A stretch of DNA of 64,000 nt from Flectonema sp. DT1601 (lineage: Eukaryota > Euglenozoa > Diplonemea > Diplonemida > Diplonemidae): contig OZ025788.1 of the NCBI GenBank assembly GCA_964019425.1, forward strand, positions 992,001-1,056,000, given 5' to 3'. A model generated the notes under the pieces. That model saw nothing but the letters and a program-made list of their open reading frames with translations, was not told the DNA's origin and made no database searches. Positions 17,630 through 37,955 of this stretch are shown in pieces (the stretch's first letter is position 1; the number at the start of each line of letters is the position of its first letter). Made by a program: the position numbers and the translations under genes.

Positions 17630-18595
17630 CTAGACGAGTGGGTCCTCTTTGTCAGGCCCGTTGTTTTCGTTTTGCTGAACCTGCTCTTCTTCGTTCAACT
17701 GAATTGGCTCTTCTTCTGGGGCCTTCTTGTTGAGCACTAAAGCCACGACACCGACAACGATAGCAATTAGTGCTGCGCTTCCAAAAGCAATTCCAAAGAT
17801 GGCTCCGTATGAAAGATCATCCCCAGAGCTTCTGTTGACAATGACAACACCTGTACCATCTGGTTGTGGGACAGCTGTTGCAACAACACCAACTGGAGGA
17901 GTAACAACACACTGAGATGGAGCAGTAATAGATCCTGATGTAACAAGAGTGAATCCAGTAATACAACTTAGAGGCTGACACAATCCATTAATCAATACAG
18001 TTGTAGCAACTGGTGAAACAGCGGTACAGGTAGGAGCCAAAATAACCTTCTGACCAGTAACAACAGGTGCTCCAAATGGGTTGTTGTTGTCGTTAGCAAG
18101 CATCTCAGAGAAACCTCTCTTACCAGCCAACCGAGTCCTTCCCTTAATAGTCATGTGAATGGATCCACAAAGGACTGGAGTGAATTCTAAGTTTGTAAGT
18201 TCGAAGAAGGCGACTGCTGCTTCGACGATAGCAGCATCAAAGGCAACTGGTCTGTTCTCGCAATCGATAGTCTGCGAGTTCCATACAATGGCGTAAATCA
18301 TATCAAATTCAGTAAATCCTGCGTTCTGAGGAACACAAGCCCAACCAGTGAAGTCAGCGCCCAATGCAATACCTGGATCCTCGTATGATCCTGAGCAAAC
18401 ACAACTACCAGAATTACATTGAATATCACTACCAGCATCCGCTGGGAAGTTACCTACAAAACAATTCTGAGCGGTACTGCACCAACCCTGAAAAATATCC
18501 CTACCGACTTCCTCAGGGGCAACATCTTCAACTGGCGCGTCCTGGGCATGGGCTGCCATCAATAAGACAGCTGCGGAAACAATACGAAGAGACAT
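17630..18595 (-). CDS. Cys-rich type I membrane protein, paralog A of a two-gene family
   Basis: Single exon, 321 aa, TAG stop. It has a signal peptide (about 1-17, ending AAHAQ), a Cys-rich ectodomain (about 30-100, with DIQC, SGSCVCSGSYEDPG and FTGWAC), a second conserved block (about 120-225) with CGSIH, GFSEMLA, NPFGAP and GLCQPLSC, a short Pro/Val linker, one transmembrane helix (about 265-288) and an acidic 33-residue cytosolic tail ending NNGPDKEDPLV. The gene at 22874-23836 encodes the same layout with nearly the same length and clear identity throughout. I do not recognise the family. The spacing and cysteines suggest a disulphide-bonded surface protein; function is unknown. Acceptor CTCTCCTAACAG (AG 18631-18632) lies 35 nt before the ATG. 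Confidence 0.85.
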   Translation of the reverse strand: MSLRIVSAAVLLMAAHAQDAPVEDVAPEEVGRDIFQGWCSTAQNCFVGNFPADAGSDIQCNSGSCVCSGSYEDPGIALGADFTGWACVPQNAGFTEFDMIYAIVWNSQTIDCENRPVAFDAAIVEAAVAFFELTNLEFTPVLCGSIHMTIKGRTRLAGKRGFSEMLANDNNNPFGAPVVTGQKVILAPTCTAVSPVATTVLINGLCQPLSCITGFTLVTSGSITAPSQCVVTPPVGVVATAVPQPDGTGVVIVNRSSGDDLSYGAIFGIAFGSAALIAIVVGVVALVLNKKAPEEEPIQLNEEEQVQQNENNGPDKEDPLV

Positions 18596-22873: not shown

Positions 22874-23836
22874 TCAAACAATGATGTCACCTTCCTCAGT
22901 GTCCGGTCCGTTGTTTATTTGAATTTGAGTGCTTGGATATTCGTGATGCTCTACAGTTTGTTTATCTCTTACACAATACGCTACAACAGCGATAATAGCT
23001 GCAACGAAGACTGCAGTTCCGAATGCAATTCCAAAGATACCAGCAGTCGATATACCGTCATCAGATACTGGGACGACACGAACACCAGGAGACTCACCTG
23101 GTTGTGGAGTTCCTGGTAAAGGTGTTGCTGGAGGAGTTACCTCACACGTTGATAGTTTAGTGATGTCACTAGACACTAATAAGGTGTTTCCACTAACACA
23201 CGATAGAGGTTGGCACAACCCAGAGAGTAAGGCGCTCGATGCAACAGGTGCTACAACATTACATGATCTCACAGCTATCGCTACTCTTTCTCCTGTTACA
23301 GTTGGAGCTCCGAATGGATTAACGTTGTTGTTCGCAAAGAAGTTTGAAAAACCAGTCTTACCAGCCATCCGAGTCTTTCCTCTTCCGATAAAATGAATAG
23401 ATCCACAATACGCTGCTGACAAAAAAAAATCAGTCATTTGAAAGAAATTAATAATTTCCTGTAAAAGAACAGCATCAAATGACGGTGGTCTCCTTCTGCA
23501 GTCGAGGTTTGCATCATTCCAAGCAAATGTGAACTCCATGTCAATCAATGGAGGCTGTTCACCTTGAGCAACGCAAGCCCATCCAGTAAATTCAGCACCC
23601 AGTGTGGCTCCAGGGTCTTCATAAGATCCAGCACATACACATGAACCAGATACGCATTGGATGTCATTTCCAACATTAGAAGGGAACGTTCCCTCAAGGC
23701 AATCAGATGCAACAGTACACCAGGGTTTGAAAACATCACCTCCTAATTCCTCAGGTGCTACTTCATCTGCTGGAGGATCATCCAGTTGACTCTGGACGGC
23801 CACAAATAATGCAACAGCTGCAGTAAAACGGAACAT
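22874..23836 (-). CDS. Cys-rich type I membrane protein, paralog B of a two-gene family
   Basis: Single exon, 320 aa, TGA stop. Homolog of the gene at 17630-18595: signal peptide (1-16), the block with DIQC, SGSCVCAGSYEDPG and FTGWAC, then FDAVLLQEI, CGSIHF, GFSNFFA, NPFGAP and GLCQPLSC, then a transmembrane helix with IFGIAFGTAV and a short tail ending NNGPDTEEGDIIV. Cysteine positions are conserved except local additions. Divergence is substantial, so the duplication is not recent although the genes lie only 4 kb apart. Both keep the NNGPD tail and a C-terminal Val, which argues for a cytosolic partner. Acceptor CCCCATTCAG (AG 23866-23867) precedes the ATG by 29 nt. Function unknown; a surface receptor or adhesin is conceivable but unproven. 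Confidence 0.85.
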   Translation of the reverse strand: MFRFTAAVALFVAVQSQLDDPPADEVAPEELGGDVFKPWCTVASDCLEGTFPSNVGNDIQCVSGSCVCAGSYEDPGATLGAEFTGWACVAQGEQPPLIDMEFTFAWNDANLDCRRRPPSFDAVLLQEIINFFQMTDFFLSAAYCGSIHFIGRGKTRMAGKTGFSNFFANNNVNPFGAPTVTGERVAIAVRSCNVVAPVASSALLSGLCQPLSCVSGNTLLVSSDITKLSTCEVTPPATPLPGTPQPGESPGVRVVPVSDDGISTAGIFGIAFGTAVFVAAIIAVVAYCVRDKQTVEHHEYPSTQIQINNGPDTEEGDIIV

Positions 23837-34937: not shown

Positions 34938-37277
34938 TCAAAGGAAAGAGGAAAATAAATTGACCTTGACACGAGTGGTATCACTAAGAACAACAATTGA
35001 CTGATAAGCCAAAAACAATATTGAAACACTCATTGCTACTGCCAAAGGAAGGAATAGTTGCCCACCAGTGGCAGTGAGAACTTTTCTTTTTTGTTCTGAG
35101 AGATCCATCTTTAAGACTGTCTTTGGCCATCCGTGTTTCAAATGAATTAAAATAGCACAAAACGCTGTGATATACAATGCTACTTGAGCAGGGTCCTGAA
35201 AGAGTTGTAATTGCGCTGAATACACATCACGGATACCATCCTTTGTAACAATAGCATCGTTCCATGCAAAATGGTAATAGTGTGCAAATAAGAAGAATGT
35301 GATGAAGATTCCAGAGTACAGCAACTTACCAGACGATGGATTGTTCAAAAAGAATCTCATTTTCGACTTACTCAAATACATTGCCGCCGCACCGTGAATC
35401 AAGAACGCTGCAAGAATAATTTTCTCCGTTATAAAATGGATTGGACTCTTTCTGATGTTGTGATAAATAAAATTGGATTTATCCTTTCCAAAGTAAACAC
35501 TACAGTTAGTGACTGTGTGACAAAACAAATATAATATAAGAAAAACAGCTGATCTGTGAAGCATTGCAGATGTGGTGTTTGGAGCTTTAGTTTTCTTTTT
35601 TAAGAATGACAGAAGCTGCTGAAAAAACAACGGGTAGTTGAATGATGATGTAGTCCCACCCATGGAGTTGAGTTGGCTTTGAAGTTTTGCAATTTCAGAG
35701 GCGATTTCTTCGCGAGTTTTTGTCTCAGGCAATGCTGGGGATCTGACATTCTTTTGACTAGCCTTACTTGCAAAAGGACTTGCAGGGATTGGTGCTACGT
35801 CAGTGTGTCTCCTTAAGGATTCAATGTCGATCATTGTTGGTCGTAGGTCTTTAATACTACGTGCGCCAATGAGTTGCATGGCCTTTATGAATTCCTCTTT
35901 TAATACAGCAAGCATCTTTGCGATACCATCATCACCATACGCAGACATACTGTAGACTGCTGGCTTACCAAGTCCTACTCCAGTTGCTCCAAGGCAAAGT
36001 GCCTTTACGATGTCTGTTCCTCGACGGATTCCACCATCGATGTAAACTTCAATCTTGTCGGCTAGTCCTCGTTCACGAAGTGCTGCCATGACTTCTGGAA
36101 GTATCTCAATACCAGATCTAGAAGTGTCAAGGTTACGACCACCGTGATTAGATAAGATTATCGCTTTACATCCTCTCTCAGCTGCTTCTACAGCATCATC
36201 ACCACATTGAACACCTTTCAGTACAATTGGGATGTCTGTGTTGTTTTTAAACCACGTTAAGTCTTCCCAGTTCAATGAAGGATCTCTGTTGGCATAATTT
36301 CCAGCCTTTCTTGGTTTAGCATCAGTTGCTGCAGACTTTTGTTGAGATTGTTGTCCCAAAGTCATCGCTATTTTATTTCTTAAATCACGTTCACGCTTTC
36401 CTGGTACAGCGCTGTCTACTGTAATACAAAGAGCCTTGATGTCGTGAGTTTTGAGATCTTTTAATTGAGAAAGAACAACATTCTTATCAGGGTTTACGTA
36501 AATCTGAAACCAACTTTTATGACCTTCCTTAGCAGAGTTAGCAATATCAGAGAAGCTTTTTGATGATAAGTTCGGAATCATAAATGGTACGTTAGCCATT
36601 CCTGCAGCACGCATCCAAGCGCACTCTCCGTCTTCATGACCCATTCCACACATAGCAACAGCCGAGAGATAAACAGGAAAGTCAGAATTAAATCCGAGCA
36701 TTGTCTGCCTTGTTTCAACATCTTTAACGTCTACCATGATACGTGGTTTCAGCCAAATTCTTTGAAAGACATTAACGTTCTCATTGTAAGTAAGTTCATC
36801 ATCAGCTCCAGAGGAGTAGTAGTCCCAGGCTTGTTTCTTTCCAGTGAGAATCATCTTTTTTTGAGCGACTGCTTCAAAGTCGTGAAGGTTAAGAACTGCT
36901 CCAAGAGGTGGGATCTCATCAGCTGATAATTCTGGTGCTGGTCCTGCCTGAGCAGCCTTCTTGATAGCTGTGTCTGGAACAGTTACCATGTCAACCTCAC
37001 CCTTGAAACACTTTTCAAGTCCTTTCACGCCAAGTGTCAAAGTCATAATACTTTCAGGATGTGCGTGCAAGAAGGAGTCAGTTGCATTAAAACCAGCCTG
37101 TTCAGTAATTACTCCCTCTCCTCCTGGATGTTCCTTTGCGAAATCTGTTAAGTCGTAAACCTTCCCACAGATAATCATCCAGCAGTCACCTGCTGTGTTG
37201 TGTTCTTTGACTTCTTGGTAAGATATCTTTCCTGGAGAGAGCATCCCCATAGCACGTGGTGAGAAGTCTTTCGGCAT
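34938..37277 (-). CDS. Cytochrome b5 - FMN L-lactate dehydrogenase - SdhC-like cytochrome b fusion
   Basis: Single exon, 779 aa, three modules. Residues 15-95 form a cytochrome b5 domain (heme ligands H50 in HPGG and H73). Residues about 120-500 form an FMN alpha-hydroxy-acid dehydrogenase like yeast flavocytochrome b2, with Y260, D288, K354 (VLKGVQ), H378 and R381 (SNHGGRN) all in place. After a short Lys/Ser/Gln-rich linker, residues about 570-765 hold five hydrophobic segments with paired His in the pattern of the b558-type succinate dehydrogenase cytochrome b (SdhC): H587, H628, H666/H669 and H712/H715 (HLKHGW). This predicts lactate oxidation with electrons passing to a membrane diheme and perhaps quinone. 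No obvious mitochondrial presequence. Acceptor AATTCTCAG (AG 37306-37307) precedes the ATG by 28 nt. The last about eight residues may be intronic if GTCAAT is a donor. Confidence 0.88.
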   Translation of the reverse strand: MPKDFSPRAMGMLSPGKISYQEVKEHNTAGDCWMIICGKVYDLTDFAKEHPGGEGVITEQAGFNATDSFLHAHPESIMTLTLGVKGLEKCFKGEVDMVTVPDTAIKKAAQAGPAPELSADEIPPLGAVLNLHDFEAVAQKKMILTGKKQAWDYYSSGADDELTYNENVNVFQRIWLKPRIMVDVKDVETRQTMLGFNSDFPVYLSAVAMCGMGHEDGECAWMRAAGMANVPFMIPNLSSKSFSDIANSAKEGHKSWFQIYVNPDKNVVLSQLKDLKTHDIKALCITVDSAVPGKRERDLRNKIAMTLGQQSQQKSAATDAKPRKAGNYANRDPSLNWEDLTWFKNNTDIPIVLKGVQCGDDAVEAAERGCKAIILSNHGGRNLDTSRSGIEILPEVMAALRERGLADKIEVYIDGGIRRGTDIVKALCLGATGVGLGKPAVYSMSAYGDDGIAKMLAVLKEEFIKAMQLIGARSIKDLRPTMIDIESLRRHTDVAPIPASPFASKASQKNVRSPALPETKTREEIASEIAKLQSQLNSMGGTTSSFNYPLFFQQLLSFLKKKTKAPNTTSAMLHRSAVFLILYLFCHTVTNCSVYFGKDKSNFIYHNIRKSPIHFITEKIILAAFLIHGAAAMYLSKSKMRFFLNNPSSGKLLYSGIFITFFLFAHYYHFAWNDAIVTKDGIRDVYSAQLQLFQDPAQVALYITAFCAILIHLKHGWPKTVLKMDLSEQKRKVLTATGGQLFLPLAVAMSVSILFLAYQSIVVLSDTTRVKVNLFSSFL

Positions 37278-37955
37278 TTTTCCCGTAACTTTTTCAAATA
37301 GGTGCCTGAGAATTAATGTAAATAAACATCCATCGCCAACAAAAACACGTCCACCGTATCCTGTACAGCTTTAGATAATAGTATGAACTAGTTGAGTAGT
37401 GTCACGCTGTGCGTCTTTTTTTTTTTTTTTTTCTTTTTTTTGTGTTTTGAATGTGATTCAAATATCATAGCTAATCATCGCTATCGAACACACGACCGAC
37501 TACAAGTATCAACTCATAACTTGAAAAGGGGGAAAGAAACAGTTTGCGAAATACGCAAACTCCTCGAAGTCCAGCAAGAAAACATAAACAGGCTTTTTAC
37601 GCATCACACGGATATGTCAACAAAAAGAGCGACGGTGGAACATACAGAAGCCCGAATTCTCTTGATATTTCAAAAGCAAGAATACATACGCAACCCCCAT
37701 TACTCACCAGTCTGTAAAAGACTTGTTTTAAGTGATGGCAATGGGGGAATAGCGCATTGGTAAGGTTGACTGACTTATTCGTTTGTTTCCCTATTCTAAA
37801 TATTCTCACAAAGGAAATAATAACTTATCGGTTGCGTGTAATGTTATTTTATTTATTTATTTTTTCCTCATGTCTGTCGAAGCTTTTAAAAAAGAAAATA
37901 CTTAGCATCACGTAAATAAAAACAATAAAATAAAAAAATTCGGCACCAGTTTGCT

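Follow-up and report, generated by a model that had tools for sequence, protein, structure and literature searches.

A flavocytochrome b2 joined to a b558-type membrane cytochrome in diplonemids: a candidate one-chain L-lactate:quinone oxidoreductase

The genome of the diplonemid Flectonema sp. DT1601 (GCA_964019425.1) encodes a protein in which a flavocytochrome b2, that is, a cytochrome b5 domain followed by a flavin mononucleotide (FMN)-dependent 2-hydroxyacid dehydrogenase, is continued in the same chain by a membrane domain of the diheme b558 type known from succinate dehydrogenase. The gene lies in a 64,000-nucleotide stretch (the window; OZ025788.1, positions 992,001-1,056,000), where its open frame occupies 34938..37277 on the minus strand and runs from an ATG at 37277 down to a TGA stop at 34938, with 779 codons before the stop. 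An earlier note on this DNA had the coordinates exactly right, but the strand had to be corrected to minus. The domain order in one chain is near certain and represents a new architecture that is assembled from two known families; the three-module enzyme is apparently undescribed as such. We consider it probable, with appreciable room for doubt, that in diplonemids the fusion acts as an L-lactate:quinone oxidoreductase which is integral to the membrane and consists of a single polypeptide.

The three modules that the earlier note had placed in one frame were all matched by profiles, namely Cyt-b5 and FMN_dh of Pfam and the b558 profile TIGR02046. The b5 domain (residues 20-95; 36993..37220, minus strand) matches PF00173 with an E-value of 5.5e-20, and its putative heme ligands H50 and H73 align with H43 and H66 of yeast flavocytochrome b2. 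The dehydrogenase (residues 148-483; 35829..36836, minus strand) matches PF01070 with 8e-108 and carries the catalytic residues of b2. In a search of solved structures, residues 15-494 align with the yeast enzyme 1fcb (E 2e-113), with identity at 194 of 476 aligned positions (41%). Fifteen of the 17 yeast positions that were looked up are identical, including H50, H73, Y153, A208, L237, Y260, D288, R295, K354, H378 and R381, which agrees with the earlier view of a b2 with its catalytic residues present; we take these identical positions to include catalytic, substrate-contact and b5-ligand residues. The two changes, S228 to P235 and T229 to N236, affect yeast residues that are presumably non-catalytic. 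Y260, D288, R295, K354, H378 and R381 are invariant in all seven fusions described here. The NCBIfam LldD profile scores 179.4 bits, below its curated cut-off of 550.

A linker (residues 495-568; 35574..35795, minus strand), in which the motifs PIPxSP and NVRxPxxP are kept across the seven fusions (alignment A4), leads to a predicted cytochrome b domain of five helices (residues 569-765; 34983..35573, minus strand), similar to the diheme SdhC/FrdC proteins. A helix at 522-538 of the linker is seen only in a low-confidence model. TIGR02046 (sdhC_b558) matches residues 577-719 with E 4e-13 when the whole protein is searched, and with 4e-14 when only the C-terminal 229 residues are used; Pfam Sdh_cyt matches weakly (0.005 for the whole protein, 1.8e-4 for the C-terminal piece alone, both below the Pfam cut-off). 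An AlphaFold2 model of residues 540-779, with a mean predicted local distance difference test score (pLDDT) of 86.4, contains one short and five long helices (569-596, 612-638, 647-671, 696-722 and 728-765), and the latter presumably span the membrane. The diheme fold predicted earlier was thus recovered as a b558-type fold, but with five long helices and not as a four-helix bundle. H587 (35517..35519; helix 1) and H666 (35280..35282) are putative distal heme ligands, and H628 (35394..35396; helix 2) and H712 (35142..35144) putative proximal ones, all on the minus strand; the four are invariant in 7/7 fusions and in 25/25 rows of the wider b558 alignment A3. H669 and H715, which had been proposed in addition, are ruled out as conserved ligands because histidine is kept there in only one and two of the seven fusions, respectively. 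Both hallmarks of a b558 SdhC, five predicted helices and four heme-ligand histidines, are therefore found in the fusion, and a chance hydrophobic C-terminal tail is ruled out by profile match and fold. A profile made from A3 gives only weak matches, at E 1e-4 to 0.05, to anchors outside Chloroflexus, and from E 0.2 on it also picks up receptor chains that are unrelated.

Some 5.8 billion proteins were searched with two queries, the window protein's residues 500-779 and residues 560-770 of P0004, which yielded six further FMN-b558 fusions; the earlier note had suggested looking for the fusion in related protists. Four are full length (777-799 residues) with the same domain order, namely P0002 (777 residues, 78% identical to the window protein in A4), P0004 (799), P0005 (782) and P0006 (787); P0007 is a gene model of 657 residues without the b5 part, and P0003 (576 residues) comes from a metagenome contig of 1790 bases and is truncated within FMN_dh. 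P0005 is named Hpha, with the source label K00101/lldD, and Hpha is the short form for Hemistasia phaeocysticola in PMC7052976. The names of P0002, P0004, P0005 and P0006 are those of Trinity transcripts, and assembled RNA therefore crosses the join in these relatives, in line with the single transcript that the earlier note had asked to have confirmed. The same join in six more proteins excludes an artefact of assembly as the source of the fusion. No FMN_dh fusion occurs among 20 shorter proteins from a search with A2, whose length range lies outside that of the FMN fusions.

In the host genome assembly (89.5 Mb, 92 contigs), one of 32 matches to the fusion protein spans its full length. TIGR02046 has two matches there, the fusion and, on another contig, a stand-alone b558 protein of 231 residues (locus L006, 1408-2103; G000:C6, about 615 kb), which has the same four histidines, a long branch and, with 54 bits, also a score below the cut-off. 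To our knowledge, a b558-type anchor would not be anticipated in the complex II of eukaryotes. A shorter b5 plus FMN_dh protein of 446 residues (locus L002, 1264-2604) has no membrane-anchor match and is a natural control for the fusion, and a further locus (L003) encodes an FMN_dh-only protein.

As to the origin of the anchor, a prokaryote collection was scanned with A5, built from five fusion C-termini, and 80 of 203 relatives were kept, in loci of 3.9 to 10.6 kb, some of them clipped by contig ends. None of these 80 loci gave a b5 or FMN_dh match (tblastn, E 0.01). The gene next to the bacterial b558 encodes an SdhA of the TIGR01811/PRK07573 type in 6/6 loci scanned with hidden Markov models, which were picked from the 80 for clear downstream frames, out of eight with frames listed; SdhB follows SdhA in the one locus checked. 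A tree of 41 b558 domains is split, with support of 100/99, into 15 rows (seven fusions, two stand-alone proteins and six related proteins of inferred eukaryotic origin) and 26 others. Of the latter, 20 come from named prokaryote records and the remaining six, two of which have bacterial names, from the protein search. The six related proteins form one group (99/95), in which two have b5 but lack FMN_dh, and the seven fusions form another together with the stand-alone P0009 (98/95), in which a long branch (1.9) leads to the window protein and P0002. The anchor may be a recruited succinate dehydrogenase b558 of bacterial type.

As to function, five points are inferred: which substrate is used, that the hemes are occupied, how the electrons travel, that quinone accepts them and that the enzyme resides in the mitochondrial inner membrane. 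The FMN of the b2 module would oxidize L-lactate or a close 2-hydroxyacid, and single electrons would leave it via the b5 heme, or straight to the proximal heme (H628/H712), or both. They would then pass through the membrane and arrive at the distal heme (H587/H666), from which a quinone could be reduced; that the acceptor may be a quinone is suggested by the resemblance in fold family. The transfer of electrons from lactate to ubiquinone is downhill, as judged from the potentials. The orientation is indicated by the loops, whose charges, counted within bounds that we set ourselves, sum over the seven fusions to +85/-15 on the side of the N-terminus (ahead of helix 1, 2-3 and 4-5) and to +39/-41 on the far side (1-2, 3-4 and the C-terminal tail). 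The positive-inside rule would therefore place the b2 part on the matrix or cytosol side, which makes H628/H712 the expected entry point for electrons and H587/H666 their expected exit. More tentatively, and with somewhat less confidence than doubt, we propose that this one-chain transmembrane enzyme is an extra entry point into diplonemid respiration, whose lactate oxidation responds to or uses the membrane potential. The FMN and the distal heme would lie on opposite sides of the membrane, and the trans-membrane electron flow would tie lactate oxidation to the potential. We know of no flavocytochrome b2 that responds to or uses a membrane potential.

Several findings weigh against a lactate:quinone oxidoreductase. 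The TIGR02046 scores of 49.4 bits (whole protein) and 52.7 bits (C-terminal piece) are about half of the curated cut-off of 96, so that the comparison with the b558 family proposed in the earlier note gave a match, but one below that threshold. The full-length structure model, with a pLDDT of 59.4, is too poor for judging contacts between the domains. By charge count alone, the five complete N-termini share no positively charged presequence, the first 25 residues having a net charge of +1 in two and a negative one in three. The host has one cytochrome c gene, which means that the acceptor used by classical b2 is at hand as well. On the quinone side, the search of its genome did not find COQ7, an enzyme of ubiquinone synthesis, and gave no menD match above the cut-off. 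P0009, a stand-alone relative of 272 residues, is placed within the fusion group, and a later split is therefore indistinguishable from more than one joining. Finally, in the part of the 2025 diplonemid mitoproteome study that is available (PMC12699882), the main text contains no word beginning with lactate, and the fusion is not described there.

That cytochrome c gene, together with the b5 module and its ligands, would fit a merely membrane-tethered flavocytochrome b2, in which the b558 domain is an anchor or side branch while cytochrome c of the intermembrane space still receives the electrons, from FMN by way of b5. We regard this as unlikely, as the four histidines, needless for a bare anchor, are invariant over 25 diverged rows, and the loop charges put the b2 part on the matrix or cytosol side and not in the intermembrane space. 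A similarly low probability is given to an electron exporter of the plasma membrane, endoplasmic reticulum or glycosome, which would use its two hemes to carry electrons of cytosolic lactate across the membrane and hand them to an acceptor on the far side, comparable to ferric reductases and cytochrome b561. It is very improbable that spliced leaders are added at alternative sites, so that the frame yields, additionally or exclusively, two separate proteins, an anchorless b2 and a free b558 that begins with M572. An acceptor-like AG does lie inside the frame at 35619..35620 (minus strand), shortly upstream of M572 at the b558 start and with pyrimidines at 13 of the 16 preceding bases, and the stand-alone P0009 groups with the fusions. 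Yet frame and linker are conserved in seven proteins, and the join is crossed in the four with transcript-assembly names; the AG itself is explicable by chance, since 2.7% of the minus-strand AGs in the window score equally high or higher and this frame has a second pyrimidine-rich AG, at residue 746. An assembly chimera of two adjacent genes is ruled out, since the join recurs in six other proteins and four of these come from transcript assemblies.

If the preferred reading as a lactate:quinone oxidoreductase holds, a soluble b2 appears to have been rewired into a membrane cytochrome of complex II type, which would provide a probable direct route for lactate electrons to quinone and onward to AOX, for which the host genome has two matches. 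Five matches to Ldh_1_C are also present, a family that includes malate dehydrogenase too. For Diplonema papillatum, the available part of PMC8611851 describes one lactate dehydrogenase, possibly mitochondrial, that oxidizes lactate without spending NADH, and lists AOX as well as enzymes of menaquinone and ubiquinone synthesis. The fusion is not mentioned in that part, nor is it described in those of PMC7052976 and PMC9512073, and searches of the open-licence PubMed Central literature, supplements aside, showed no description of it. Diplonemids are abundant and species-rich marine protists with a little-known energy metabolism, and the fusion is a candidate gene for lactate dehydrogenase activities that are bound to membranes in euglenozoan mitochondria. 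It also presents the diheme anchor of succinate dehydrogenase as a portable electron-transfer module that is combined with a different dehydrogenase.

About 30 bases 5' of the ATG, a candidate spliced-leader acceptor AG was located by eye (37306..37307, minus strand). The spliced-leader core occurs in 718 copies in the host genome, many among the matches listed in tandem arrays, and all four loci opened read ACCAACGATTCTAAAGCTACAGTTTCTGTACTTTATTG, which we take to be the diplonemid form. Among the matches listed, tandem arrays of spliced-leader RNA genes begin at 1432 kb of contig C16 (G000; repeat of ~623 bases) and at 1248 kb of C20 (~610). The paraflagellar-rod domain has 27 matches in the same genome. 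In the window, the minus strand holds 20 of the 21 frames of at least 180 residues with an ATG (3-63294), as in a polycistronic cluster. Two of its products, at 17630-18595 and 22874-23836 (minus strand), are similar proteins of 321 and 320 residues, secreted or single-pass by appearance, the former without a Pfam match.

Compared with known systems, the fusion resembles yeast CYB2 (1fcb/1kbi) in the order of b5 and FMN_dh within a single chain and in the catalytic residues. Flavocytochrome b2 is a soluble enzyme that gives its electrons to cytochrome c; the fusion differs from this soluble intermembrane-space state by about 285 extra residues at the C-terminus, for which a membrane domain of five helices and diheme type is predicted, and its homologues lack a common charged presequence. 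LldD, an FMN enzyme of the same family, is quinone-linked. Membrane-bound bacterial enzymes of the LldD family have an internal insertion linked to membrane association, as stated in PMC3344892, whereas the fusion has a separate integral cytochrome. The b5 and b558 modules are combined in more than one way, in the fusion and also in the two-module proteins P0010 and P0011 (406 residues) and P0021 (306 residues), whose source label 'merc' we read as a marine eukaryote catalogue. These share the N-terminal b5 with the fusion, and P0010 and P0011 also its larger b558 group, but they show no FMN dehydrogenase match. Among the SdhC/FrdC diheme cytochromes of succinate dehydrogenase and quinol:fumarate reductase (TIGR02046; 9lay_C, 2bs3_C, 5xmj_C), the partner is SdhA/SdhB, and it is replaced here by a fused FMN dehydrogenase; the b2 part would be placed relative to the b558 domain in the same way as SdhA/SdhB relative to SdhC.
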